64,000 bases of DNA, taken from the NCBI RefSeq assembly GCF_017406825.1, contig NZ_JAFQXT010000027.1, forward strand, positions 1 through 64,000. Direction: 5' to 3'. The notes beneath the pieces are model-generated. The model was given only the letters and a program-made list of their open reading frames with translations. It had not been told where the DNA came from and did no database searches. Within the stretch, counting starts at the first letter, position 1. Every line of letters begins with the position of its first letter. Below, piece by piece: positions 3,476 through 18,742 of the stretch. The stretch comes from Methanobrevibacter sp. (GTDB taxonomy: Archaea > Methanobacteriota > Methanobacteria > Methanobacteriales > Methanobacteriaceae). A program made the translations under genes and the position numbers.

Positions 3476-3530
3476 GATAAATCTTGATATTTCTTTCTAT
3501 TTTTTACACATCAAAATCAATATTGAATAC

Positions 3531-3566
3531 TTTGCAAATGCTCTCTTGGCAAAAGGTTAAATATTA
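3531..3566 (+). promoter_or_regulatory. mre11-rad50 promoter with shared CAAATGCTCTCT element
   Basis: The sequence TTTGCAAATGCTCTCT (3531-3546) is followed by a TATA-like TTAAATATTA at 3557-3566. The mre11 ATG is at 3648, so a leader of roughly 55-60 nt is expected. The same 16 bases occur inverted at 15736-15751 before a UvrD-like helicase gene, and the 12-base core CAAATGCTCTCT recurs at 15809-15820 before an MrfA-like helicase gene. In all three the element has the same orientation relative to its gene and lies just upstream of TATA. That it binds a regulator is inference. Confidence 0.6.
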
Positions 3567-3647
3567 TTAGGTTAGATTATTAAACATTAAATGCTTGTTA
3601 AAGTGTTTAAATTGGTTATAATACACAAAATTAAAGAAGGTAATATA

Positions 3648-4850
3648 ATGAAATTTGCACATTTAGCAGACACTCATTTGGGTTACCGTCAATACGGTTT
3701 AATTGAACGGGAAAAGGACTTTTATGAAGTGTTTGAAAGGGTTATAGATAAAATAATCGAGGAAAATGTAGACTTTGTAATACATAGTGGGGACTTATTC
3801 GAAACCTCAAGGCCGTCACCCATTGCGCTTCTGACTTTCCAAAAGGGATTGCTGAAACTTAAAGGTGCTGGAATTCCAATGTATGCTATTGCCGGAAACC
3901 ATGATGCGGTAATGCGTAAAGGATCCATTCCTCCACAGGTAATCTTTAAGAAATTAGGTCTTAAAGTAATCAGCACTATCAATCCCACTTATATGCATGA
4001 TGATATATTCATTGCAGGACTGCCTTTTTTCCCGGCTTCACATGGCAAAGCTTTAAAAAGTAAATTGGCGGAGTTATCTGAAAAAGCAACACACCATGAA
4101 AAGTCAATCCTAGTTTTACACCAGGGAATAGACAAGTATTTCGGTTACAATTATGAATTGGAAATAGGAGACATTCCGGATAACTTTGACTATTATGCGA
4201 TGGGCCATATTCACAAGTATGTCAATGATAAATTCGGAAAGGGCAGGCTGGTTTATCCTGGATCCAGTGAAATTTGGAAAACATCAGAAATTCCGGATTA
4301 TCATGAAAACGGTAAAGGTTTTGTGGTTGTTGATTTGGACGGCTCAAAACCGATAATTAAAAGAGTAAAAATTGAAATGCCAAGGCAATTCATCAAAAAG
4401 ACGATTGATTATTCTAGCTTAGAGAGTGAAATCTTATCAATAAAAGAAGCTATAAAAGATTTTGACAAAAAACCAATTCTATCTCTGGAAATAAATAATG
4501 TCGAATCCGATACTAAAGTGATTTATGAGATTATTAATGAAGAGTTAGGCGATTTGGCACTGATGATTAGGCCAAAATTCAATCTGGCAGGACAAGACCC
4601 AATACTTGATGATGAATCAAGTTCTGATATGAGCCCTGAGGCGCTATTGGTTAAACAGCTTGAAAAATATGACAATACCGATGTAAATATTCTGGCCACA
4701 GACTTATACGGTTTGTTGTCTAAAGATAAAACAGAGGAAGCCAGTGAGTTAATCAGTCAGTTTTATAATGAACATTATTCCACAGTCACTGAAGATGCTG
4801 ATGAGGAACCTCCCGAAGGGGATGAACAGACAACACTTGAGGAGGATTAA
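3648..4850 (+). CDS. mre11: DNA double-strand break repair nuclease Mre11
   Basis: Mre11 is the Mn-dependent 3'-5' exonuclease and endonuclease that acts with Rad50 to process DNA ends. With the start at 3648 the protein has 400 residues and shows the phosphoesterase motifs: ADTHLG (D8, H10), HSGDLF (D49), AGNHD (N84, H85), LHQG (H158) and MGHIHK (H187, H189). The longer reading frame from 3591 would add 19 residues before the conserved MKFAHLADTH start; the 3648 ATG has AAGAAGG upstream and is preferred. The C-terminus is acidic. The gene is 2 bp from rad50, with the rad50 ribosome binding site GAGGAGG inside its end. Its promoter carries the CAAATGCTCTCT element. Confidence 0.97.
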   Translation: MKFAHLADTHLGYRQYGLIEREKDFYEVFERVIDKIIEENVDFVIHSGDLFETSRPSPIALLTFQKGLLKLKGAGIPMYAIAGNHDAVMRKGSIPPQVIFKKLGLKVISTINPTYMHDDIFIAGLPFFPASHGKALKSKLAELSEKATHHEKSILVLHQGIDKYFGYNYELEIGDIPDNFDYYAMGHIHKYVNDKFGKGRLVYPGSSEIWKTSEIPDYHENGKGFVVVDLDGSKPIIKRVKIEMPRQFIKKTIDYSSLESEILSIKEAIKDFDKKPILSLEINNVESDTKVIYEIINEELGDLALMIRPKFNLAGQDPILDDESSSDMSPEALLVKQLEKYDNTDVNILATDLYGLLSKDKTEEASELISQFYNEHYSTVTEDADEEPPEGDEQTTLEED

Positions 4851-4852
4851 TA

Positions 4853-7600
4853 ATGATTTTCAATAAATTAAAATTAAACAATTTCAAATCCCATGAACAT
4901 ACAGTAATAAATTTCGATAAAGGAATCAGCGTTATTGTTGGAGAGAATGGAGCTGGAAAATCAACAATCCTTGAAGCAATAAGCTTTGCATTATTCAAAC
5001 AGCACACAGGTAAAAAGATAGATGATCTGGTTAGGAATAATGCTCAATCCATGTCAATTGAATTGGAATTCACATCTAGCGGTAGAGATTATAAGATTGT
5101 TCGCATGAAAAAATCAAACTTAAAATCTTCATTGTTTAAAAGAACATCTTCAGAAGGAGGATATGTACATGTCTGCACCGGGGATAAAGAGGTCGCAAAT
5201 GAGATTCGCCAAATACTGGATATAGACTCAGATTTATTCCTCAATGCAATTTACATAAGACAAGGGGAAATTGCAGAACTAGTTGACAAGACTCCTGCTG
5301 AGAAAAAAGCATTAATTAATAAACTATTGGGTCTGGATTCCCTTGACAAGGCATGGAAAAATCTCTTACCATTGATTAATGATTATGAAAATCAATTAGC
5401 TGAACTAAAAGGAAAATTATACAACTCTAAAGAATTGCGTGAAGAATACGAAACTAAAAAATCAGAGTTGGATACCCTTAAACAAAAAGGCCATGAACTT
5501 GAAAGTGATATCGAAGAGGTAAATAAGGTTTTGGATGAAATGGCTGAAAGCAAACGCAATATGGAAATTGAAAAGGAGATTTTTGAAAACCAGAAGAATA
5601 GTTTGGAAGCCGAAAATAATACATTATCCAAGTTAGAAGATGAAAAGGTAAGAGTCCAAAACGATTTGGATAAGGTTCGCGAGTCTGAAGTTGAAATTGA
5701 GAGGCTTGAAAAATTTATTTCAAAACTGGATATCTACCTTGATTTTGAAAAAATTGTGGGAAAAATCAGAACATTGAAAAATCAAGAAAAGGAAATTGAA
5801 GAAAAATTAGAATCAATTGCGGCTCAAAAGGATATACTTTCAGATAAAAAAGATGGTTATAACAGTTATTTGTCATCTGAAGATGAAATCAATGAACTCA
5901 ATAATCAAAAAACTGATCTTGAAAAGGAACTGGCTAAAATGGCCAAGCTTGAAACCGATAAAAAGGAATTATTGAGACAAATTGAAGATGAAAGAAATGA
6001 CATAGAAAAATTCTTCTCAAAGGCAAAAGATACCTTGCAGGAAAATGGTCTGGACCAGGACGAATTGGCTGAAATCGATGACTTGAATCATCTGGAGGAA
6101 TCTACAGCCAAATTCAGTGATGAGATATCTTCCAAGATAGATGATTTGTCAAAAGACATAACCTCTAAAAGCGAAGACATCGTTGTGTTCAAACAGAATA
6201 TCAAAGCCTGCGAAAAACCTCTTGCCGAATTGGATGGAATTGACAATAAATGTCCTGTTTGTCAATCAGATATTGATTCAGATAAGAAGAAGGAATTGAC
6301 TAAACAATATACTTCTGAGATTACTGAAAATAAGAAATTAATTGCTCAAAACGAAGAAAGTCTTCGTTTAATGACTAGGAATAAAAACAGATTTGAAGAA
6401 AAACTTGAAAGTCTTTCCGGATTATCTAAAGAGATTATTGAATATAAGCAAAAATTCCATCAGTTACAAAAAGAGTTGGTTAAACTAAATAAAATCGATG
6501 AAGACTTGGAATCTAAAGAGCATATTAGCGACAAACTCGGTGGAATAATATGGGAAATCTCCAACAAGAGATCAAAACGTGAAGTTTTCAAAGAGGACCA
6601 TGATGCATATATTCAGGCCCAGGGAGCTTTGGATGCTTTAGGTGATGAAACCGAAGTTCAATATAGTCTAAAACAAATTAAAAATGAAATCGATGTTCAG
6701 GTTGCCAATATCAAATTGCTCATGGAACAGGACCCTCATTTAAGTTCCGACATCAGTGCAGAAGAACTTACAAACCGCATTGAAGATTTAAAGCAGAAGA
6801 ATGAGGAGTATAACCAACACAAAGGTTTTGTTCAAAATAAACAGTCATTGATGGCTCAGATGGATTCTATTAAGGATGATATCGGAATGTCCATAAATCA
6901 AATTGACATCCTTGAAAATAAGATTAAAGCATCCGCATTTAATCAGGAAAAATATGAACAGATATTATTTAACTATGAAAGATATGAAAAAAGAAAAGAA
7001 GTGTCTTCAACTGAACTTTCAGAAATTAAAGGTCAGGCACGCGAATCAATAAAGGTCATCACTGATTTGACCAACAAAATCAGAAAGTCAAGCAAATTCG
7101 AACAGGAGTATAATGACATATCAGATTATATTGACTTATTATCTCATATTAGGAGTTTATACAGTAAAAACGGTATTCAAAAGGATTTAAGAAATATTTC
7201 AAGGCCAATGATTCAAAAACACACTAAAGAATTCTTCAATGAGTTCAATTTCAATTATTCCGATTTGACGATTGATGACGAATATGATGTGACAGTATAC
7301 GGTCCTGAAGGGGAATCATCAATGACAATGGTCAGCGGTGGCGAAAAGATAGCCATTGCACTTGCTTTAAGATTGGGTATTACTCAAGCGATGGCAAATG
7401 GTGAATTGGATACTATCTTATTGGATGAGCCTACAATCCATTTGGATGCTTCAAGAAGGCATGAACTGATCAATCTATTGAAAGAGATGTCTTCCCTGCC
7501 TCAAATGATTATTGTAACTCATGAGGCTCAACTTGAGAATGCTGCCGATAATCTGATAAAAGTAGAAAAGGAAAATGGTATTTCAAGAGTAATAATGTAA
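4853..7600 (+). CDS. rad50: DNA double-strand break repair ATPase Rad50
   Basis: Rad50 is an SMC-like ATPase that tethers DNA ends and controls Mre11. The 915-residue protein starts with Walker A GENGAGKST (residues 30-38) and then has a long heptad-rich coiled coil broken by the zinc hook CPVC (C467, C470), where two Rad50 molecules join. The second coiled arm leads to the ABC signature VSGGEK (about residue 827) and Walker B ILLDEPTIHLD (about 855-866). Length and layout are typical of archaeal Rad50. It is cotranscribed with mre11. It ends 19 bp before the convergent TIR-like gene, with a T-rich terminator between. Confidence 0.98.
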   Translation: MIFNKLKLNNFKSHEHTVINFDKGISVIVGENGAGKSTILEAISFALFKQHTGKKIDDLVRNNAQSMSIELEFTSSGRDYKIVRMKKSNLKSSLFKRTSSEGGYVHVCTGDKEVANEIRQILDIDSDLFLNAIYIRQGEIAELVDKTPAEKKALINKLLGLDSLDKAWKNLLPLINDYENQLAELKGKLYNSKELREEYETKKSELDTLKQKGHELESDIEEVNKVLDEMAESKRNMEIEKEIFENQKNSLEAENNTLSKLEDEKVRVQNDLDKVRESEVEIERLEKFISKLDIYLDFEKIVGKIRTLKNQEKEIEEKLESIAAQKDILSDKKDGYNSYLSSEDEINELNNQKTDLEKELAKMAKLETDKKELLRQIEDERNDIEKFFSKAKDTLQENGLDQDELAEIDDLNHLEESTAKFSDEISSKIDDLSKDITSKSEDIVVFKQNIKACEKPLAELDGIDNKCPVCQSDIDSDKKKELTKQYTSEITENKKLIAQNEESLRLMTRNKNRFEEKLESLSGLSKEIIEYKQKFHQLQKELVKLNKIDEDLESKEHISDKLGGIIWEISNKRSKREVFKEDHDAYIQAQGALDALGDETEVQYSLKQIKNEIDVQVANIKLLMEQDPHLSSDISAEELTNRIEDLKQKNEEYNQHKGFVQNKQSLMAQMDSIKDDIGMSINQIDILENKIKASAFNQEKYEQILFNYERYEKRKEVSSTELSEIKGQARESIKVITDLTNKIRKSSKFEQEYNDISDYIDLLSHIRSLYSKNGIQKDLRNISRPMIQKHTKEFFNEFNFNYSDLTIDDEYDVTVYGPEGESSMTMVSGGEKIAIALALRLGITQAMANGELDTILLDEPTIHLDASRRHELINLLKEMSSLPQMIIVTHEAQLENAADNLIKVEKENGISRVIM

Positions 7601-7612
7601 ATTCATTATTAC

Positions 7613-7620
7613 TTTTTTTT
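7613..7620 (+). terminator. Poly-T terminator after rad50
   Basis: A run of eight T follows the rad50 stop codon by 12 bp. Archaeal RNA polymerase terminates at such runs without a hairpin. The run reaches the last bases of the convergent TIR-like gene. Confidence 0.6.
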
Positions 7621-8014
7621 ACATTGTATGGTGTGCGTCTTTGACTGAATCTACAATGCAGTTGGCATTCCATCCAACGATGGTTGCAGCATTTTCTTCG
7701 AGTATTTCAGGAACTTCCTCAAGTCCGTATGGCCTTACTAAAACTATTGGTATATTATATTCTTTGCTGGCATTCAAAAGGTCTTCAAACAATTCCTTAT
7801 TGTCTTCATATAATCCGGCTAACATGATTATTGCATCTATTTTGCTGTAGAATCTTTCTCCTGCTGCTGAATATGACCCTGATATTGATTCTTTCCAGAG
7901 GAATTCTACTTTTGAATATAGTTTTTCTGTAAATTGCGCATATTCATTATTTTTATCGAAACCGTTTGTGATAATTAAGTTGTAAATTTTGTCATCTCTA
8001 TCATCTTCGAACAT
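7619..8014 (-). CDS. ThsB/MTH538-like TIR-fold protein
   Basis: This 131-residue soluble protein resembles the MTH538/ThsB TIR-like family (DUF1863), whose members have a flavodoxin-like fold. Visible blocks are YNLIITNGFDKNN at the start, a central Asp/Ile-rich strand IDAIIMLAGLY, VLVRPYG, and the end IVGWNANCIVDSVKDA, close to the usual closing motif of the family. In Thoeris defence, ThsB makes a cyclic ADP-ribose signal for the NADase ThsA. No SIR2/ThsA partner gene is seen here, so a defence role is unproven; MTH538 itself is a stand-alone methanogen protein. The start has an AAGGTG ribosome binding site. It converges with rad50 and diverges from the Mur ligase gene. Confidence 0.72.
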   Translation of the reverse strand: MFEDDRDDKIYNLIITNGFDKNNEYAQFTEKLYSKVEFLWKESISGSYSAAGERFYSKIDAIIMLAGLYEDNKELFEDLLNASKEYNIPIVLVRPYGLEEVPEILEENAATIVGWNANCIVDSVKDAHHTM

Positions 8015-8111
8015 CTAAACACCTTGCTTTAATTTTAATCGTCATCTTATAAAAATATTTATTAATTCAAAAAGTTAAGATTATATTATAATTATTTAGG
8101 AATTATTTTTT

Positions 8112-9392
8112 ATGAGAGCCGCTGTAATAGGATTGGGAGTAGAAGGTAAGAAGGCTGTTAATTCCCTTTTAAAACATGGATGGGAAGTTTATGCTACTGA
8201 TTTAAATATTAACATTGATTTGAATGGTTTGAATTTGCCTTTGTTGGATATGAATATGATTGATGACAATCAAACAGTTTCCATTGTTGGGGACAATATC
8301 ACTGTTGATTTAGGTTTTACTAATTCCTATGCTATTGAGGAGTGTGATGCAATAGCTTTTAGCCCTAGCATGTACGGAGGCTCTTTTGCAGAAAAGCTAT
8401 TGGAAAACGGAAACCTGTTGAGTGATGTTTTAGTAAATCATAAAAGCATTTTCACTATTGGAATTACCGGAACCAACGGCAAAACCACCACTGTCCACAT
8501 GTTGAAAAATATTCTGGAAAGTGCCGGCAAAAGGGTTTTGGTTGGCGGAAACGGTGGCGGAGGCTTTTCCGGATATTATGATCTTATTCTTGAAGCCGAA
8601 GAAGGCGATTATGATATTCTTCTTGTAGAGGTTTGCGATATGACTCTTGACTTTGCCAATTACTGTTTTGATTTTGATATGGTCGGACTTACTAACATTG
8701 GAAATGACCATATGGATGTGCATAAGACCATTGCGAATTATAAGAATTCATTGGTCAGGTTTTTCACAGGAAAAACTATTTTTACAGCTTTCAATCAGGA
8801 TTTCAATGCCGATTTTAAGGATGTGGCTAAAAAATATGTTCCTTATTTTGCCTATCAGGATGAACTTCAGCTAATCGGTAAGTTCAATCTTCTAAATGCC
8901 GGTTTGGCCACAGCCATTGCGACTGAGCTGAAAATATCTAAAGATGTCATCAGACAAACTCTTGCTAATTTTAAGGCCGTTGTGGGTCGTTTGGATGTCT
9001 ATAAAATCAATGATGCTGATGTTTATGTTGGAAAAACAGATAATTCTGATGCATTGGCTTCCGTTTTAAAGGAAAGAGATTTTTATGCATTGTTTATCGG
9101 CACTCCAAGACATAATGAAGTGCATAGGCTGGATATACTGGATGTGGCCGTCAAATATAATCCGGAGGTAATCGTACTGTTTCCGGGATTGGATGATACA
9201 TTGGATATTGCAATATATAGATTACATTCCTTGGGTTATATGGGAAATATCATAACGGTTAGCACTCTTGACCAAATCATCGAATTGGTTGCGGAGTACT
9301 CTCATGAAGAGGCTATTTTCATTGGAGGCAATGGTCAAGATACGATTATAGATATTCAAGAAAGAATCAAATTAATTTCCGAAAAGTTATGA
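8112..9392 (+). CDS. Mur ligase family protein (MurC/MurD-like)
   Basis: This 426-residue protein has the three-part Mur ligase layout. It has an N-terminal nucleotide-binding fold (GLGVEGKKA, residues 7-15), a central ATPase domain with the P-loop GITGTNGKTTT (117-127) and GNDHMD, and a C-terminal domain with GRLDVY and IFIGGNGQDT. Mur ligases form amide bonds using ATP. In pseudomurein-containing methanogens, homologues are proposed to build the cell-wall peptide, while another relative (CfbE) works in coenzyme F430 synthesis; I cannot tell which substrate applies. The Rossmann-first order is most like MurC/MurD. It is followed by a membrane protein with a VanW-like end, which mildly favours a wall role. 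Confidence 0.85.
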   Translation: MRAAVIGLGVEGKKAVNSLLKHGWEVYATDLNINIDLNGLNLPLLDMNMIDDNQTVSIVGDNITVDLGFTNSYAIEECDAIAFSPSMYGGSFAEKLLENGNLLSDVLVNHKSIFTIGITGTNGKTTTVHMLKNILESAGKRVLVGGNGGGGFSGYYDLILEAEEGDYDILLVEVCDMTLDFANYCFDFDMVGLTNIGNDHMDVHKTIANYKNSLVRFFTGKTIFTAFNQDFNADFKDVAKKYVPYFAYQDELQLIGKFNLLNAGLATAIATELKISKDVIRQTLANFKAVVGRLDVYKINDADVYVGKTDNSDALASVLKERDFYALFIGTPRHNEVHRLDILDVAVKYNPEVIVLFPGLDDTLDIAIYRLHSLGYMGNIITVSTLDQIIELVAEYSHEEAIFIGGNGQDTIIDIQERIKLISEKL

Positions 9393-9406
9393 TAGTCAAA
9401 AACCTT

Positions 9407-9414
9407 TTTATATA
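9407..9414 (+). promoter_or_regulatory. TATA box for the VanW-like membrane protein gene
   Basis: TTTATATA preceded by AAAACC (BRE-like) lies 15 bp after the Mur ligase stop and about 50 bp before the ATG at 9458. The next gene therefore probably has its own promoter. Confidence 0.5.
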
Positions 9415-9457
9415 ATGTAGAGTATATTTATATATGTGTATTAATTAGGTGTATAAA

Positions 9458-10645
9458 ATGAAAAACGGTTGGAGAAAAATTTCTATTACAATTTTGATAG
9501 TATTAATTTTTTTATGTATATTTGTAGCTTTCACTAGTTCTGCAACTACAAATTATACCGCTGAATCCGTATCTAAAGATTATAATCTTCCTATCGGCCA
9601 GTCAATGTTTGAAAATCAATCCATTGTCGGTACAACTGAACCGATTGAAGTTCCTTTAATATCCAATGCAGGATTTTTACTTCATCAACTTTTAGCTTTA
9701 GATTTGCAGGGTATCTTGCTGGCCACTTCAACAGGAGTAGTTCCGTTTGACTTTTCAACTGTTGCTGCAGAGGGCATTGATTCTTATGGTAATGTTGTTG
9801 ATGTGGACGGTCCTGGATTTTTAACCTATGCCGGTGATAAACTAACTGTTAAAGAACCTGACAATTACGTATGGGCTTATAGTGCTCCATATAAATGGTT
9901 GGAAAAAACCGAAAATGGAATAGATATTTACGAAGATGGCAAACTGGTTAAATCTGTTCCTGTAGACCAAATTAGAGAATTGGACTATAAGAATGATTAT
10001 TATAATGGCACCACTATTGCAAATTGGTATAATTATGATGCTAAGGAAGGTTCTACATTCACTTTGGAAAAAGGAATGGTTGCATTTTCCGATGGAAGAA
10101 ATAATATCAGTTCCGCTGACGTTACCAAAATATTCGGTAAGGATGTAGTGGATTACGCTTTTGAATATCCAACTGGTTCTCCAATCTTATTATATGTTGG
10201 AAATTACACAGAAGAAGATGGGGAAGTCTATGGTACTTCATTGGGTTCATATCCTGAATACGGTAATGCCGTTAGGGAAGTGAATGCAAGACAATTTGTG
10301 GAAGCGTGGAATGGAACTATCATTCCTCCTAAGTCAACATCAAGTGGAAAGGATTATGTTTACTTCGAATCCGCTAGCGATCCTGAAGCGCCTGGTGGAA
10401 GTGCAGCTCATGGTGTATGTCCGCCGGCTAGAGCTTTAAGGGCTGCAGTTACTTCTGAAGGATTTGACTTACCTGTAGGCATGAGCTGGGATGAAAATGC
10501 AGTAATGTTCGGTTACAATCCTGCACAGGACATAACAGTAACCAATAACCATGATTATCCTGTCAAGCTCCATATGTGGACTGAAGGCGAGGGCACAGGA
10601 ATGGGCATTTATTGCCAAGTAATAAGATATATTCCGAATGATTAA
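9458..10645 (+). CDS. Membrane-anchored extracellular protein with VanW-like C-terminal region
   Basis: The ATG at 9458 has the ribosome binding site TTAGGTG just upstream; the GTG at 9449 is part of that site and is rejected as start. The 395-residue protein has one N-terminal hydrophobic helix (about residues 8-30) and then a large extracellular part. Near the C-terminus, HGVCPPARALRAAV followed by DLPVGMSWDENAV and ITVTNNHDYPVKL resembles the VanW domain pattern (GxCQVSTxLYNA, then a DATV strand and NNTDxPV). VanW is linked to glycopeptide resistance in bacteria, but its biochemical role is not settled. The domain match is by eye. A wall-related function next to the Mur ligase is inference. 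Confidence 0.65.
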   Translation: MKNGWRKISITILIVLIFLCIFVAFTSSATTNYTAESVSKDYNLPIGQSMFENQSIVGTTEPIEVPLISNAGFLLHQLLALDLQGILLATSTGVVPFDFSTVAAEGIDSYGNVVDVDGPGFLTYAGDKLTVKEPDNYVWAYSAPYKWLEKTENGIDIYEDGKLVKSVPVDQIRELDYKNDYYNGTTIANWYNYDAKEGSTFTLEKGMVAFSDGRNNISSADVTKIFGKDVVDYAFEYPTGSPILLYVGNYTEEDGEVYGTSLGSYPEYGNAVREVNARQFVEAWNGTIIPPKSTSSGKDYVYFESASDPEAPGGSAAHGVCPPARALRAAVTSEGFDLPVGMSWDENAVMFGYNPAQDITVTNNHDYPVKLHMWTEGEGTGMGIYCQVIRYIPND

Positions 10646-10663
10646 TTTCATTCTCTTTTTTTT

Positions 10664-11317
10664 ATGTCAATCTCAACTATTATTACAGCGGCAGGTAAAA
10701 ATTCTAGAATGAGAAAGGATCAGCTTTCCCGTGGAATTGAATTGACCAATAAACTGATTTTGCCATTCAATGGCAAGACCGTTATAGAGACAACTATAGA
10801 CAATGCATTATCCTTGAATATAGATGAATGTATTGTAGTGCTTGGTCATTTTGCTAGTGAAATAAAAGAAGTTATTTTTGATAATTATAAAGGCGATGTA
10901 AAATTCATTGAAAACAATCCTGTTGATGTAGGTTTATCAGTATCATTATATAATGGTTTGTCAAATTCAACTTCCGATTTTGCATTGTGCATTACCGCAG
11001 ACCAACCGACCGTCACAACAGAAACATTCAATAAAATGATTGAAGTAAGCCGTAACAGTGAAGACCCATTTAAGACCATTTCAATTCTACGTAGAAGAAA
11101 AACAGGTTTGCTGGATACCGCTGAAGGTCTGGGAATGCCTTTCGTAGCGCCCCGTGAAAACCTAATGAAATATCTTGAAAAAGAAAACGATAATCTAAAT
11201 CCGATTTTGCGTAAAATTTTCGATGACGGTTATACGTTTTACGGAATAAAAGAAAAAAATGAAAAAGAGTTGTTAAACATCAATCATTATGATGATTATC
11301 TAAAACTCTTAGATTGA
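10664..11317 (+). CDS. MobA/MocA-like nucleotidyltransferase
   Basis: This 217-residue protein is a GT-A-fold NTP transferase. It has the N-terminal loop ITAAGKNSRM (residues 7-16), a Lys in TNKLILPFNGKTVIE (23-41 region), and the metal-binding ITADQPTV near residue 110. Related enzymes attach CMP or GMP to molybdopterin, or NMPs to sugar phosphates; the substrate here is not evident. The inserted QLSRGIELTN before the PFNGK strand is longer than in MobA. A T8 run (10656-10663) directly precedes the ATG, so the leader must be very short or the gene is read through from upstream. Its end overlaps the convergent DUF169 gene by 9 bp. Confidence 0.78.
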   Translation: MSISTIITAAGKNSRMRKDQLSRGIELTNKLILPFNGKTVIETTIDNALSLNIDECIVVLGHFASEIKEVIFDNYKGDVKFIENNPVDVGLSVSLYNGLSNSTSDFALCITADQPTVTTETFNKMIEVSRNSEDPFKTISILRRRKTGLLDTAEGLGMPFVAPRENLMKYLEKENDNLNPILRKIFDDGYTFYGIKEKNEKELLNINHYDDYLKLLD

Positions 11318-11986
11318 TTCAAGTCCTGAAATAACTTCCTCGATCTTAGCCTTGCTAATGCCCACTGTCATTTCATTATCTTTAATGTCAGCTGCTTTTC
11401 TGGATCCGTCACAGCCTAAAGTGAAATTAACTCCTTCTGATAAGTAAGGATTAGCAAATGCATCACCGCATAATGACTGAATGCCTGCAAAGGACGGGTT
11501 GATTTTCTCACCAGTCTTATAAACAATACTTTGAGCGAGTTTCATTCCACCAACAGGTTCGGTTATGACCTGAATCACGTCAGCTTCAAAGTCAGCTTCA
11601 TCCAATGGTGCATAAATCATTCCCCAGCTAATGTCTTCAATAATTGAAAGTTTTCCTGTAAGTTTTTTAGCGGTTTCCAAATCTTGGAATCTGCCCAATG
11701 AGAAGTATTTTTCACCGTTTGCTAATTTTTCAGGCATATCCCTAAGTCCGATGGCTCCTGCTCCTCCCAAACATAGCTGCTCATCAATTGTTGAGTAGAA
11801 TTTGTTTCCTAATGAGGCTTTTCTAACCATTTCGCAATGCCTGATTTTTTCATCAATCAAATCATAGCCTTCGGGAAGGTCCTCTTCAGTTTTGATTAAT
11901 TTCATTGCCACAGGTTTAGCATCAAGCTTGATTTTGCTTTCGATTACTTCACAATATTTTTTGTTTTTCTCCAAATTGTCTGCCAT
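11309..11986 (-). CDS. DUF169 family protein
   Basis: This 225-residue soluble protein fits the DUF169 family common in methanogens and other anaerobes. Recognisable are the N-terminal KPVAMKLIKTEEDLP, RHCEMVRKA, the glycine-rich CLGGAGAIGL, and LGCDGSRKAA near the end. The family has conserved Cys residues (here in RHCEM, EQLCLGG, SLCGD and LGCDG), and its biochemical role is unknown; members often sit near redox or corrinoid genes. The start has a GGTGA ribosome binding site. I cannot assign a function. Confidence 0.82.
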   Translation of the reverse strand: MADNLEKNKKYCEVIESKIKLDAKPVAMKLIKTEEDLPEGYDLIDEKIRHCEMVRKASLGNKFYSTIDEQLCLGGAGAIGLRDMPEKLANGEKYFSLGRFQDLETAKKLTGKLSIIEDISWGMIYAPLDEADFEADVIQVITEPVGGMKLAQSIVYKTGEKINPSFAGIQSLCGDAFANPYLSEGVNFTLGCDGSRKAADIKDNEMTVGISKAKIEEVISGLESI

Positions 11987-12011
11987 ACAATCACCTATAT
12001 TCTTATTTGTA

Positions 12012-13232
12012 TTATGGAATTCTTATATCTTTGTTTTTAACACTGTTATTTTTACAGAATGTTCTGAAATCACAAGCACTGCAAGTTCTCTCATCTGATT
12101 CGGCCTTCCAGGCTTCCTGTATCTTACAGCCTTTCATTTCCCTGATTAATGAATCTTCTATTTTGGCAACTACACTGTCAAACTTCAAAAGGGCATCATT
12201 TTTTTCATTTTCATCAACATTTATGATTCTGATGGAACGGCTAATCTTAAACTCATCACTCAATTCAGGAGCTTTGTCTTCCTCTTCCCAATTTCTGATT
12301 AAATCAACATCTCTTTCGAATTCACATCCGACATCAGTCAGATTGTTCTCAAGTTCATCCTTGATTAAAGCCAAATCCTCTTTTGACGGAACAAGTTCAT
12401 TCAAATAGAATATGATTCCGGCAACAATGGGTTTTGAATCTTCCTGTTTGGACCTGAGCCAGGAATATGTAAGAATCTGCTGTTTATGATTTTCCCAGTT
12501 GTCTTCAACATTTAAGTCAGTTACAACTGAAGGCGGCCTTTTCATTCCTTTATAATCGATTATTATCTCATAATCCTCATTATCCTTATAACCAGCTATC
12601 CTTTTTTGAAATTCAGGATCCCTTTTGAGAAATTTAATAATAAGATTGTCAAAATTGTCAAGGTTGCTCTGTTCCAAATCATTTATCTTAATTGAAGTCA
12701 GCACATCGACGACACCGTTAATTCCATAATAATTGGACCTGCTGATATTTTCATTATAGTTAGGCATCTGTCTAACTCCTTTGATAAGGAGCTCTGAAGA
12801 GTCAATTAATGGGAATAAATGTTTTCCCCATATATTAATCGCCTTTTCGGCTCTAGCACTGGCTAATTTTTTGTGGTCATGCTCGTTTAAATCATCTATT
12901 TCCGGATGATTTGACATGCTGAAAAACAAATCCTCATCATAAGGATAGAGGCCCCTGACTTGAAGCCTTAAATCGATCTGCTCTTCAATCGGCCTGATGT
13001 TTTCCAGCCAGTCCCATGGAAATTGGGTCTGTTTGTATTTCCAATCCAGAAATGCTTCTTCCAGAACTCCATGAATGAATTCTCCAAACCATCTCTGCAC
13101 AGGTTTTGAAGGGGGCAATGTTCCCTTATTCTGGTATCTGTATTGTAAATTGCAAGTCAAAAATGAAAGCAGGTCTCCTGTCAGGCTATATTCCGGAATT
13201 TTATAGGGTCTAGATTTTGCAGGCAGTTTCAT
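12012..13232 (-). CDS. PD-(D/E)XK nuclease with AddB/Cas4-type Fe-S cluster
   Basis: This 406-residue protein has an intact RecB-type nuclease core: H54 in FIHGVLEEA, D176 in NGVVDVL, and D226 plus K228 in IIIDYKGM. The Fe-S ligands are C27 in FLTCNLQYRY and C384, C387, C393 in TCSACDFRTFC, the arrangement known from AddB, Cas4 and Dna2. It probably cuts single-stranded DNA made by the helicase encoded just upstream (13241-15685). The two genes are 8 bp apart and the ribosome binding site GGTGA lies in that gap, so they form an operon and probably one helicase-nuclease complex like AddAB. The order is helicase first, nuclease second. Confidence 0.9.
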   Translation of the reverse strand: MKLPAKSRPYKIPEYSLTGDLLSFLTCNLQYRYQNKGTLPPSKPVQRWFGEFIHGVLEEAFLDWKYKQTQFPWDWLENIRPIEEQIDLRLQVRGLYPYDEDLFFSMSNHPEIDDLNEHDHKKLASARAEKAINIWGKHLFPLIDSSELLIKGVRQMPNYNENISRSNYYGINGVVDVLTSIKINDLEQSNLDNFDNLIIKFLKRDPEFQKRIAGYKDNEDYEIIIDYKGMKRPPSVVTDLNVEDNWENHKQQILTYSWLRSKQEDSKPIVAGIIFYLNELVPSKEDLALIKDELENNLTDVGCEFERDVDLIRNWEEEDKAPELSDEFKISRSIRIINVDENEKNDALLKFDSVVAKIEDSLIREMKGCKIQEAWKAESDERTCSACDFRTFCKNNSVKNKDIRIP

Positions 13233-13240
13233 ATTTTCAC

Positions 13241-15685
13241 CTAAATTAAGTATATCTCCTTAAATCCAACATATTTTTCATCTCTACTCCATCCAAGAGC
13301 GATATTTGGAATATCAAAATGGTCATTTTTCTTGTTGTATCCTTCAATGGCCGAATTGAGTCCCACAAGCAGCAATACACTTTCAGCTCTTGAAAATGCA
13401 ACGAAGTATAATCTTGTCAAATCATCAAATAATCTGTCTTTTTCACTTCTTTTGCTTTCTCCAAGTGAACTGTGCTGTCTTATGCTGTCTTCAATTGTCA
13501 TGTTGTCTTTAATGGATTTTGGGAATCTTAAACGTTGAGTTCGAATGTCATTTGTTTTGAATCTTGAACCTACATCCACTATTACCAATGGGAATTCCAA
13601 TCCCTTGGACTGGTGGATGGACAATACATTCACCCTATCGTCGGGCAAGGTCTCAAGCAGCGATTCGTCAATTCTGACCCCTCCGGTTGAAAGGGGAATG
13701 AAAATGTTCCAAATGGCTTCCAGCACGGAATCCTTTTCCTGCTTCTCGTTTCTGAATGAAATATTTGAATGATAATCATTGAAAAATCCGGTTTGGGTAA
13801 TTGATTTGGTTATGGCTTCAAGGTATACAATTCCTTCAACGTCATCCTGAAGGTCTTCAATCCATGTTGTTATTTTGTAGGCAAGTTCCATTAAACTGGC
13901 GGTTTTGGGCCATTCGTCATGCCCTCGCGGTCTTCTAAGCTGCCAATAGGTCACGAATTCAGACAAAGTTATTGGTTGACGAGGTTCAGGATTCAATTTG
14001 ATGTAGTCCTTGGCTTTAAGTCTCCATATGTTCATATTTCTTTTGGCTAAATTTGGAATGGTTTTATCCGAATTCTGGAAACTTGCTCCGGGGTCTATAC
14101 ATTCAAGCATCAGGCCGCAGAAGACTCCCACTATATCTATTTCCTGTAGGTCAATTCCTCTAGGATTGAAAATTTCGATAGGTTGTTTGAATTTTTTAAG
14201 GTTTTTCCTCAAATAATAAAGGAAGGAACGATTTCCATGATGCACTTCCCTGGGGGAATATGATAGGATGGCAATATCCGAAGCGGATCCATATTCACCA
14301 TCCAATCTGAGTTTTATTTTAGGAATATGTTTTCCCAATGCCAGGTTTTCACTTCTCAACTGTTGCAGTTTGGCAATATCGATTGCACCGTTCATCTTTT
14401 CATAATATTCCTTGTTTAAAACCTGCAACACTTTCAAGTCACATTCTCCTTTATTTATCAGTTTGTTTAACAATATGGACAAGTCCCTTGCAAGCATTTC
14501 GGGGTTGTTTCTAAACATTCCCAATATAGGCATTTTATCCTTTTCAAAATCGGGAGCTATAATTTTCGGTTTGTTTTCAACTCTGGCGTTTTGATATTCG
14601 GAGTCGAGTTCTGCAAACTGATTGCAGTGAGCTATAATATTTTCAGTTGACCTGTAATTGGTCTGCAGGTTAATCTCTGCAACATCAATTCCTAGGCGTT
14701 GCCTGACACGGTTTTTGTAATCGGTGAACAAGTCCACGGTAGCTCCTCTGAAGCGATACAGGGATTGGTCGTCATCACCCACTACAGTAATGCTGCCGCC
14801 ATTTTTAAGGGCGCTTTCAGCTATGGTGAAGTAAATGTCCTCCTGAATAAGGTTGGTGTCCTGATATTCGTCAATAAGGACAATTTTAATCTCATCTAAA
14901 AAGTTTTCCAGTTCACCACTTTTTAGTTTATTTAAAAATAATGATTCAAGCATTGCAAAGTCAATCGTATTCCTTTTTATTAATGTTGTTTCATAATCCC
15001 TAATGCAATCGAGCGCAATCTGCTGACCGCTTCCCTTTTCGGTTTTTTGATATAACTCATCAATGTCTACCTGATCATAATAAAGTCTATTTTTAATTTG
15101 CACAAGTATTTCACTCATTTTTGATGGTTCTTCCAGTGCAGACCTTCCACTTAACTCTTTGAGGTATTCAACTAATTCCTTTTTCAGATACTTTTCATTT
15201 TCAATAAGAATCTTCATCATGGCTGAGTTTGCAACGAATTCTTCAATCACTACAGACTGATTTTCACCGGGTTTTTTATTGTCCCGAAGCAATTCCTCAG
15301 CCACGCTGTCGGTTGTACCGATCCTGATTTGGTTGAAGTCAATTCTGTCAATTTTTAAGAGGGTGTCGAAGTTTTCTTCATCGATATTGTCTATTAGATG
15401 GGTTTTAATTTCATCTCCCCATCCAAGAATTCTGGAATGCAATTCTTCAGCCGCTTTTTTGGTGAATGTTGTTGCCAGTATCTCATTTGGATTGATGTCA
15501 TCAACAAAAATGTATTTTAATATTTTAAGAACCATTACGGTGGTTTTTCCGGAACCAGGTCCTGCTACGATAAATAATGATTTATCTCCATTGGCCAATA
15601 TTGCATTCTGCTGGTTCTGATTTGAAGAGATATCCCTTTTTAGCGTATTAACTATAATATCCTCAAATTCCTCATATGAAATCAT
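13241..15685 (-). CDS. UvrD/AddA-like SF1A helicase
   Basis: This 814-residue DNA helicase has a full motif set: Q-motif region NQNQQNAI (22-29), Walker A AGPGSGKTT (41-49), ATTFTKKAAEEL (71-82), VLIDEYQDTN (269-278), VVGDDDQSLYRFRGA (301-315), LSIHQSKGLEFPLVIVD and VAFSRAESVLLL. It ends soon after motif VI and lacks its own nuclease domain; that is supplied by the next gene (12012-13232). Together they resemble a split AddAB or AdnAB machine that resects double-strand breaks. It reads from the divergent promoter shared with the MrfA-like helicase, and its start has a GAGGT ribosome binding site. The promoter carries the CAAATGCTCTCT element. Confidence 0.93.
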   Translation of the reverse strand: MISYEEFEDIIVNTLKRDISSNQNQQNAILANGDKSLFIVAGPGSGKTTVMVLKILKYIFVDDINPNEILATTFTKKAAEELHSRILGWGDEIKTHLIDNIDEENFDTLLKIDRIDFNQIRIGTTDSVAEELLRDNKKPGENQSVVIEEFVANSAMMKILIENEKYLKKELVEYLKELSGRSALEEPSKMSEILVQIKNRLYYDQVDIDELYQKTEKGSGQQIALDCIRDYETTLIKRNTIDFAMLESLFLNKLKSGELENFLDEIKIVLIDEYQDTNLIQEDIYFTIAESALKNGGSITVVGDDDQSLYRFRGATVDLFTDYKNRVRQRLGIDVAEINLQTNYRSTENIIAHCNQFAELDSEYQNARVENKPKIIAPDFEKDKMPILGMFRNNPEMLARDLSILLNKLINKGECDLKVLQVLNKEYYEKMNGAIDIAKLQQLRSENLALGKHIPKIKLRLDGEYGSASDIAILSYSPREVHHGNRSFLYYLRKNLKKFKQPIEIFNPRGIDLQEIDIVGVFCGLMLECIDPGASFQNSDKTIPNLAKRNMNIWRLKAKDYIKLNPEPRQPITLSEFVTYWQLRRPRGHDEWPKTASLMELAYKITTWIEDLQDDVEGIVYLEAITKSITQTGFFNDYHSNISFRNEKQEKDSVLEAIWNIFIPLSTGGVRIDESLLETLPDDRVNVLSIHQSKGLEFPLVIVDVGSRFKTNDIRTQRLRFPKSIKDNMTIEDSIRQHSSLGESKRSEKDRLFDDLTRLYFVAFSRAESVLLLVGLNSAIEGYNKKNDHFDIPNIALGWSRDEKYVGFKEIYLI

Positions 15686-15732
15686 TTAAGTACCTCTTAA
15701 TTTAATTTATATGATTAACTTATTTAAATAAT

Positions 15733-15835
15733 ATGAGAGAGCATTTGCAAACTAATATTCTTGAAAAGAAATCTGTTGTGCGAAAGTTATTTCATAATTA
15801 ATACTTATCAAATGCTCTCTCATCTGCTTTATATA
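15733..15835. promoter_or_regulatory. Symmetric divergent promoter with inverted CAAATGCTCTCTCAT elements
   Basis: Two perfect inverted copies of a 15-base element flank a 61-bp spacer: ATGAGAGAGCATTTG at 15733-15747 and CAAATGCTCTCTCAT at 15809-15823. On the right arm the element is followed after 4 bp by TATA box TTTATATA (15828-15835) for the gene at 15884. On the left arm, read on the minus strand, it is followed after 4 bp by TTTAAATA (15721-15728) for the gene starting at 15685. Identical spacing on both arms suggests that one regulator controls both promoters. The element also occurs at the mre11 promoter. Confidence 0.7.
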
Positions 15836-15883: not shown

Positions 15884-18742
15884 ATGGATGAAGTAAGCAA
15901 TATTGACATGTTTAAGAATGATGTGAGGTACAGGGAAAATATAGCTCATATTGAAACAATCCCCGCTAAAAAGGCCAGTTTCAAAAAAGTAGATAATCTA
16001 AACGAAAGGATTGTTGATTATCTCTCATCAAAGGATGTGAAGCTATACCGACATCAGGCAGATACCTATGAATCCATTCAAAACGGGGAAAATGTCATCA
16101 TCACAACCCCGACCGCTTCCGGAAAGACCCTCGCCTTTAACTTGCCCATAATGGAAACAATGATAAATGATGAGGATGCAACAGCATTGTACATCTATCC
16201 TGCTAAAGCATTGTCTAATGATCAGCTGCATGTTCTGGAAAACCTGGAAAGGGAACTGGACATCAAAATCAACCCAAGGACATATGACGGCGATACGCCA
16301 CGCGAAGAAAAAAGGGGAATACGCGAAAAATCAAGAATTGTTTTAACCAATCCATATCAGCTGCATCTCATTTTGGCATGGCACCATCAGTGGTCAAGGT
16401 TCTATAAAAACTTAAGATACATTGTCATTGATGAATCCCATTACTACAAGGGCGTGTTCGGTTCCAATGTGGCGTTTCTGATTAAAAGATTAAAGAGAAT
16501 TGCTAATTTTTACGGGTCATATCCCCAATTCATATTGTCCTCAGCGACACTGGCAAATCCTCTGGAGCTTGCCAATCGTTTAACCGGTGAAGATTTCGTT
16601 CTTGTTGATAATGACACATCACCAAGCGGTGAAAAGGACTTCATCCTTTATAATCCATTTAAGAATTATGTGAGAAATAAAGTCAATTCCCAAAATGCCC
16701 CTTCAGTCCATATGGAAACGGAGAATATATTCATGTATATGATGTTAAAAAACATCCAGACATTATGCTTCACAGTTTCAAGGAAGACAACCGAACTGAT
16801 TGCAATGTGGGCTAAAAATGACATGACTCAGGTTAAAGGAAAGCTGGCCCATAGAATTGCAGCTTACCGTGCAGGTTATCAGGCTCAGGAAAGGCGTGAA
16901 ATCGAAGAGGGACTTAAAAGCGGAAAATATTTGGGAGTGACATGCACCAATGCCCTGGAATTGGGAATTAATATAGGTTCTTTGGATGCAGTAATCATTT
17001 CCGGATATCCTGGAACTATGATATCAACATGGCAACAAGCCGGAAGGGCAGGCAGAAGCAATCAGAAATCTTTAGCAGTCCTTATTGCTTTTGAAAATCA
17101 GCTGGACCAGTATTTTATGAATAATCCAAAATTCTTCTTCGATAAGGCTCATGAAAATGCAATCATCGATTTAACAAATCCTATATTGCAGGAGGCTCAT
17201 CTGTTGTGCGCTGCCAAGGAATTGCCCCTTCAAAGGGGAGAGGCAGAAAAATATTTCTCAATATCCCAGGATGTAATCGACGGGTTGGTTTCCAAAAAGG
17301 ACCTGCATGAAAATCACAGGGGGGATTTCATGTATCCTTATGATGACAATCCCGCAATGGACCATTCCCTTGATCAGATTTCATCACAGGAGTTTAGGGT
17401 GATGAATAACGGCAACCTTCTTGAGACTATGGAAAAATCTCAGGTTTATCGTGAAGCTCATGAGGGAGCCATTCTAATCAACAAGGGAGATACCTATGTT
17501 GTAAATAGCGTCAATTTGAAAAACGGATATGTCAACGTATCCAAACAGGCGGTTGATTATCATACGATGGTTCTAAATCAGACTGACATCAACATTAAAA
17601 GGAAATTGTCAAAAACAAAATACGGCAATCTGACAATACACTTTGGAGAGTTGACTGTCCGGGAAGATTACTTCAAATATAAGAAAATGCAATTTTCAAA
17701 AGTGATTGGAACGTATCCTTTGGATTTGCCTCCTTTGAAATTCAACACCAAGGGATTATGGTTTACGATACCTAAACAAGTCAAGGACACTCTTGATGAC
17801 ATGTTCCCAAATGAAGAGGAAGTGTTTGCAGGAGGATTGCACGGTGCTGAACATGCTTTAATCGGATTGTTCCCGCTCCATACAATGTGTGACAGGTTTG
17901 ACATTGGAGGATTATCCACCAATTACCATGAAGATACTCAGGAAGCAACAATATTTATTTATGACGGTTATGAAGGTGGAATTGGAATATGTGAAAAAGC
18001 GGTTGACGTATTTGTTGATTTGCTTAATTCAACCATCGACCTTTTGGATAACTGTCAGTGCCAAAGCGGCTGTCCGGCTTGCATTTACTCACCGAAATGC
18101 GGAAATGACAATAAGCCTCTGCACAAAAACGCCACCAAATTTATCCTGGAATACATGTCTAAACTGATTTCAAATGAGACTATAGCTGAAAAAGAGGAGG
18201 TCAGTGTTGAGGAATCCGACGAGTTCGATGATTTCGCTGACGCATTAAAATTGTATGAAAAAGGGGATTATTCGGCTTCAAAAGATGTGTTAAATAGTGT
18301 TCTTGCCCATAACAATCAACATTCACAGGCTCTGGCTTTAATGGCTAAGATATTATATGAACAGGACCAGAGGGATATAGCATTGGTTTTTGTCAGAAAA
18401 TCATTATCATGCGACAGGTCCAATGAAATGGCAAATGAGCTTGAAGTTCTGCTGTCAAATAAGCCTCAAAAGCCTGATGTTATAGTGGATTCTCTTGACG
18501 ATATCGATACATTATATGAAGAGGCATATGATCTTTACGCCCAGGGAGATTTGGAAACATCTTTTGAAATATTGGAAAAACTTCTTGATTTTGATGATAA
18601 GAACTCAGAGGCACTTGCATTAATGGGCTTAATTTATTACCACTCGGGAATATTTCCAAAGGCAATTGAATATTATAAGAAAGCTTTAAAAATAAATAAA
18701 AATGGTGAAATGGTTAATGAATTAAAGATGAGGGTTTCCTAA
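15884..18742 (+). CDS. MrfA/Hrq1-like DEAD/DEAH-box helicase with C-terminal TPR region
   Basis: This 952-residue SF2 helicase has YRHQ (Q motif, about residue 58), Walker A TPTASGKT (75-82), VIDESHYYKG, SSATLANP, ALELGINIGSLD and QQAGRAGRS. A C-terminal Cys cluster with C724, C726, C730, C733 and C739 (CPACIYSPKC) matches the DUF1998/MrfA zinc-binding module. MrfA in Bacillus repairs mitomycin-type DNA damage by an excision pathway. Two TPR-like stretches follow (about residues 780-835 and 875-945; FDDFADALKLYEKGDY and AIEYYKKALKIN), an extension the bacterial enzyme does not have as far as I know. It is divergent from the AddA-like helicase and shares its regulatory element. Confidence 0.92.
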   Translation: MDEVSNIDMFKNDVRYRENIAHIETIPAKKASFKKVDNLNERIVDYLSSKDVKLYRHQADTYESIQNGENVIITTPTASGKTLAFNLPIMETMINDEDATALYIYPAKALSNDQLHVLENLERELDIKINPRTYDGDTPREEKRGIREKSRIVLTNPYQLHLILAWHHQWSRFYKNLRYIVIDESHYYKGVFGSNVAFLIKRLKRIANFYGSYPQFILSSATLANPLELANRLTGEDFVLVDNDTSPSGEKDFILYNPFKNYVRNKVNSQNAPSVHMETENIFMYMMLKNIQTLCFTVSRKTTELIAMWAKNDMTQVKGKLAHRIAAYRAGYQAQERREIEEGLKSGKYLGVTCTNALELGINIGSLDAVIISGYPGTMISTWQQAGRAGRSNQKSLAVLIAFENQLDQYFMNNPKFFFDKAHENAIIDLTNPILQEAHLLCAAKELPLQRGEAEKYFSISQDVIDGLVSKKDLHENHRGDFMYPYDDNPAMDHSLDQISSQEFRVMNNGNLLETMEKSQVYREAHEGAILINKGDTYVVNSVNLKNGYVNVSKQAVDYHTMVLNQTDINIKRKLSKTKYGNLTIHFGELTVREDYFKYKKMQFSKVIGTYPLDLPPLKFNTKGLWFTIPKQVKDTLDDMFPNEEEVFAGGLHGAEHALIGLFPLHTMCDRFDIGGLSTNYHEDTQEATIFIYDGYEGGIGICEKAVDVFVDLLNSTIDLLDNCQCQSGCPACIYSPKCGNDNKPLHKNATKFILEYMSKLISNETIAEKEEVSVEESDEFDDFADALKLYEKGDYSASKDVLNSVLAHNNQHSQALALMAKILYEQDQRDIALVFVRKSLSCDRSNEMANELEVLLSNKPQKPDVIVDSLDDIDTLYEEAYDLYAQGDLETSFEILEKLLDFDDKNSEALALMGLIYYHSGIFPKAIEYYKKALKINKNGEMVNELKMRVS

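Follow-up and report, generated by a model that had tools for sequence, protein, structure and literature searches.

Do the DNA-repair genes of a methanogen share a promoter element and, if they do, which protein reads it? The question arises from a 64,000-nucleotide stretch of the genome of a Methanobrevibacter sp. (RefSeq assembly GCF_017406825.1, contig NZ_JAFQXT010000027.1, positions 1 to 64,000; hereafter the window), in which the initial annotation had noticed the 12-mer CAAATGCTCTCT before three repair loci. This 12-mer belongs, as its core, to a 20-bp element, AWTACTTNTCAAATGCTCTY, which stands before recombination, excision-repair and replication genes across the genome. We consider it fairly probable that AWTACTTNTCAAATGCTCTY is the operator of a DNA-repair regulon of the Methanobacteriales, an analogue of the bacterial SOS system, and that it is most likely bound by Cdc6-2, the second Orc1/Cdc6 protein of these archaea.

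Within the window, exact CAAATGCTCTCT occurs at 3535-3546 (+), 15747-15736 (-) and 15809-15820 (+) and nowhere else, as annotated, and the 16-base identity TTTGCAAATGCTCTCT between 3531-3546 and 15751-15736 is correct. The length of the element, given as 12-16 bases, had to be extended to 20 bp. Each copy precedes a TATA-like box by 8-10 bp and is directed at a DNA-repair gene, again in agreement with the annotation. The AddA-like operon and the mrfA-like gene are divergent, with one copy of the element for each direction. The features of the three loci are as follows.

3526..3545, plus strand: repair element AATACTTTGCAAATGCTCTC before mre11-rad50 (pattern match; distance to mre11 kept in relatives)
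3556..3563, plus strand: TATA-like box GTTAAATA, 10 bp past the element (relatives show TTAAATAT at the same place)
3648..4850, plus strand: mre11, calcineurin-like phosphoesterase (Pfam; orthologues)
4853..7600, plus strand: rad50, with AAA_23 and Rad50 zinc hook (Pfam)
12012..13232, minus strand: PD-(D/E)XK nuclease in the operon of the AddA-like helicase (Pfam PF12705)
13241..15685, minus strand: AddA-like UvrD/Rep helicase (Pfam PF00580, PF13361)
15721..15728, minus strand: TATA-like box TTTAAATA, 8 bp past the element (sequence)
15737..15756, minus strand: repair element ATTAGTTTGCAAATGCTCTC before the AddA-like operon (pattern match)
15800..15819, plus strand: repair element AATACTTATCAAATGCTCTC before the mrfA-like helicase gene (pattern match)
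15828..15835, plus strand: TATA box TTTATATA, 8 bp past the element (sequence)
15884..18742, plus strand: MrfA-like helicase with DEAD, MZB, HRQ1 winged helix and TPR (Pfam)

The mre11 of the window has its closest named relatives in Methanobrevibacter. Across the assembly that holds the window (G000; 1.72 Mb in 54 contigs), CAAATGCTCTCT with at most one mismatch was found 29 times, against once for the reversed pattern, which served as the control in every genome-wide and viral count. For the longer TACTTWTCAAATGCTCTC, 16 copies are perfect and 32 have three mismatches or fewer (control, 2). Good copies of the 20-bp element number about 25 in this genome (control, 1-2). The consensus was derived from 56 sites in this genome and in that of a second species (G014). 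In these sites the element is asymmetric and non-palindromic and has a single orientation relative to the downstream gene, while the flanking DNA is unrelated from site to site. The TATA box starts 8 bp past the element in 22 of the 56 sites and 10 bp past it in nine. The site is asymmetric, keeps its orientation and lies roughly one turn before TATA, as would befit a protein in contact with TFB/TBP, and from this we infer activation rather than repression. The bound protein would aid or gate TFB/TBP recruitment upon DNA damage or stalled replication.

The genes downstream of each copy in G000 include hjc, hef, hel308, mre11-rad50, rpa-radA, nurA-herA and uvrA. Also among them are genes for an XPD/DinG-like helicase and for a MutS-like protein that has a helix-hairpin-helix motif, the AddA-like operon, mrfA, topoisomerase VI B and A, the small and large subunits of RFC and the anaerobic ribonucleotide reductase gene nrdD. 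The remaining targets encode a DUF763 protein, PfkB, a SocA/Panacea protein, a membrane protein of the YdjM type, another membrane protein of 61 aa and two small uncharacterised proteins. Of the 23 distinct sites, about 13 lie before genes for DNA repair or replication (binomial P ~1e-11 at a class rate of 5%, which was assumed and not computed from the genome). An occurrence across the genome without enrichment before repair genes, by which the initial annotation would have had its regulon refuted, is not what the count shows. The assembly also contains two near-identical uvrB-uvrA-uvrC regions (C47:17162 and C35:6851); it is a metagenome-assembled genome with a contamination of 4.6%, and the duplication is probably a strain mixture.

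The element and its targets are conserved beyond this genome. The second species has 34 copies; 16 of their targets are orthologous to G000 targets, and its orthologue of the AddA-like helicase is also preceded by the element. Conservation upstream of mre11, on which the regulon had been staked, was recovered in 22 of 42 relatives, with the site at 119-123 bp from the ATG and at most one mismatch in 17 of them. Several genera of the family are enriched in the element. All nine further Methanobrevibacter have the element at rpa, as do the majority of the family's other genera; both order-level families have it there in a variant form, and the rpa promoter of the class-level outgroup (G049) is without it. 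On these promoter comparisons, the element at rpa can be traced back to the base of the Methanobacteriales.

Which protein might bind such an element is suggested by the Sulfolobales, where a non-initiator Orc1/Cdc6 protein, Orc1-2, controls the damage response via the non-palindromic motif ANTTTC beside the TFB-recognition element (BRE) (PMC9738581, PMC5817253). Since Orc1-2 is a global damage regulator, and since the element described here is linked to cdc6 genes, Cdc6-2 is the best candidate for the binding protein. Cdc6-2 is present in all 31 Methanobacteriales genomes searched, and the outgroup G049 has a single Cdc6. In most of 21 genomes examined, cdc6-2 is adjoined by a copy of the element and by a gene for a membrane protein of 57-79 aa. 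This linkage includes the order-level families f2 and f3, where few recognisable copies persist. The copy is positioned to drive the membrane-protein gene, which is convergent with cdc6-2. In three genomes (G011, G021 and G064) it has CAAATGGGGTC in place of CAAATGCTCTC, and the rpa element of G021 is changed likewise. The small membrane protein itself (MLGNNDTTIQVDLRKRSSIKDEI...CMVMLVAITALLLSVISVV; in G000 at about 1474-1660 of the region C17:9000-15000) might, speculatively, be a damage-induced membrane effector, for example a brake on cell division.

Further links between element and protein come from genera with additional cdc6 genes. Short Cdc6 paralogues of genera g21, g22 and g25 have the element upstream in 12 of 12 cases, with a right half typical of the genus. 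These open reading frames of ~270-330 aa match the family over no more than its first ~270 of 366 positions, with no winged helix matched. In g25, the small membrane gene beside cdc6-2 is preceded by a tandem array of ATTACTTATCAATACCCCTT-like repeats, spaced at about 22 bp, which might serve as a second origin as well. The right half of the element in this genus is ACCCC at the array, at the short cdc6 genes and at topoisomerase VI. In the same genus K349 and R352, basic residues in the Cdc6-2 wing that are near invariant elsewhere, are changed. By alignment and fold, Cdc6-2 retains Walker A, a Walker B of the DD form, a region like the initiator-specific motif, and the winged helix; the top fold matches of its AlphaFold2 model are archaeal, DNA-bound Orc1 structures. 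Judged by alignment only, its wing reads TGKGxRGNSR versus SRGRGKGRT in the initiator Cdc6-1, and its winged helix is without the arginines with which initiators contact the origin recognition box (ORB). As an AAA+ ATPase with a winged helix, Cdc6-2 would work in the manner of Sulfolobales Orc1-2.

Several observations weigh against a repair regulon under Cdc6-2. The mre11 site has been lost in part of the genus, and some relatives have decayed remnants of it. Six targets, namely pfkB, YdjM, DUF763, the SocA-like gene and the two uncharacterised genes, have no known role in repair. In G000, the promoter of full-length cdc6-2 itself is without the element, and the short paralogues could simply be members of the regulon. 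The model of Cdc6-2 is of moderate confidence (predicted local distance difference test score, 72.5), and Cdc6-2 of M. thermautotrophicus has been regarded as a helicase loader. Lastly, an identity of the element with the ORB was considered and rejected, as shuffling gave a P of 0.12-0.27 for their resemblance, which is thus not significant.

The alternative that survives best keeps both the regulon and the damage signal and has another order-specific transcription factor bind the element, so that Cdc6-2 is a mere neighbour and the short paralogues are mere targets. Such a factor is a possibility that we take seriously, and it is nevertheless unlikely. It would suit a Cdc6-2 that is not under its own element, and the presence of several uncharacterised small proteins in the regulon also speaks for it. 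Against it stand the order-wide linkage to cdc6-2, the element at every one of the 12 extra Cdc6 paralogues, and the wing changes in the very genus with the altered site. Known types of damage regulator were also sought. WYL-domain proteins were found in none of 13 Methanobacteriales-class genomes, and no LexA-type repressor (helix-turn-helix plus S24 peptidase) was found. The S24-peptidase hits are most likely signal peptidase, because they are single, ~200-220 aa long, and also present in the outgroup G049.

Read in another way, the target list would point above all to the cell cycle. The element would then be an S-phase element of replication and recombination genes rather than a damage element, which we regard as improbable. 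Targets such as rfc, rpa, topoisomerase VI and nrdD, with MCM as an additional target in G014, agree with it, and replication timing would suit a regulator of the Orc1/Cdc6 type. The majority of targets, however, are repair-specific nucleases and helicases, and a stress signal fits better than S-phase because the integrases of proviruses and the TnpB genes of transposons also bear the element. Among viral contigs, 27 have the element, against 4 for the reversed control, and 10 of the viral copies lie directly upstream of tyrosine-recombinase integrases. Five named viruses of the Methanobacteriales were checked. In four of them, namely vir075, vir080, vir249 and the M. smithii virus MSTV1, a copy lies 38-62 bp before the integrase start (provirus records PP537965, BK068243, BK063677 and BK063678); the integrase of the fifth, psiM100, has none. 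The copy at the integrase is the single strong one in MSTV1. In G014, the element precedes ten IS605-type TnpB genes and two integrase-like genes, and a TnpB promoter of the same type carries it in G000. If the signal is damage, mobile DNA is expected to use the host repair operator, which it also does in bacterial SOS, and we infer DNA damage as the trigger of the regulon. The copied site would let integrase and TnpB expression of proviruses and IS605-type elements track the host damage response.

Two side results concern viruses. An Orc1/Cdc6-like ATPase encoded by MSTV1 is said to govern its lysogeny switch (PMC12134362); the gene lies at 3990-5213 of the MSTV1 sequence examined. We considered this protein as a relative of Cdc6-2 and rejected it, the likeness being only distant and the gene having no element upstream. 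A search of phages for DNA similar to the promoter pair gave no meaningful match.

Much less credible is binding by the replication initiator Cdc6-1, in the way that DnaA binds promoter boxes. The element and the Cdc6-1 ORB do have TTAC, AAAT and TCTC blocks in common; this likeness is not used as evidence here because shuffling gave it no significance. Moreover, the origin boxes of g25 remain TTACACTTGAAA whereas the element is altered there, and G049 possesses Cdc6-1 yet has no rpa element. Hardly tenable at all is a core-promoter variant that works without a regulator, or a set of remnants of a spread mobile element: adjacency to TATA and the TnpB copies of G014 might suggest one or the other, but the site is 20 bp long, near-fixed and upstream of the BRE region, has unrelated flanks from site to site, is tied to one functional class and is kept at orthologous genes across genera.

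An operator for repair genes bound by Cdc6-2 can be extended to a fuller picture, in which the Methanobacteriales would have a complete SOS-like damage regulon with Cdc6-2 as its master regulator, an operator to which proviruses and TnpB elements are attuned as well, and the small membrane protein as a possible division brake. On this extended version our judgement is evenly balanced.

The regulon can be compared with several known systems. As in bacterial SOS (LexA/RecA), one operator stands before recombinase, single-stranded DNA-binding, uvr and helicase genes, and proviruses use it. The LexA operator is a palindrome that blocks the promoter. The methanogen element differs in being asymmetric and upstream of TATA, which suggests activation, and LexA was not found. 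As an activator-type damage regulon under a non-LexA regulator, it would resemble those of PafBC and DriD, the bacterial WYL-domain damage activators; the lack of WYL proteins in the 13 genomes noted above sets it apart. With Sulfolobales Orc1-2 and its DNA damage-responsive element it would share a non-initiator Orc1/Cdc6 paralogue, and it does share a non-palindromic, one-orientation element upstream of BRE/TATA in a set of promoters. The element is different, a 20-bp site that contains ACTTNTC and is not the Sulfolobales-type ANTTTC, and Cdc6-2 as its binder is a candidate. A regulator that binds its own promoter is a further trait of the Sulfolobales type; in the methanogens the element precedes all 12 short paralogues but not the full-length cdc6-2 of G000. 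The targets differ too: in the methanogens they are the recombination and excision-repair genes themselves, and in Sulfolobus the ups pili, tfb3 and others. In Sulfolobus, UV is reported to have raised no repair genes (PMC2246294). A study of Halobacterium NRC-1 reports that UV raises the expression of radA1, rfa (RPA) and genes for ribonucleotide reductase, with neither an SOS-like response nor uvr induction (PMC1224876). The radA, RPA and ribonucleotide reductase genes are likewise among the methanogen targets; we found no shared promoter element described in the Halobacterium study. Nor did we find a description of the present element or regulon in the open-access literature, and it may have been reported elsewhere.

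Archaea are commonly described as having no response of the SOS kind that turns repair genes on jointly. With an exact operator, its targets, a candidate for the regulator and viruses that have hijacked the site now named for gut methanogens, the question can be put to a direct test. Should Cdc6-2 prove to be the regulator, Orc1 paralogues would govern the damage response in both main branches of the archaea, the crenarchaea and the euryarchaea. It would also suggest a reason why these methanogens have retained a second Orc1/Cdc6, and how their proviruses could sense damage to the host.

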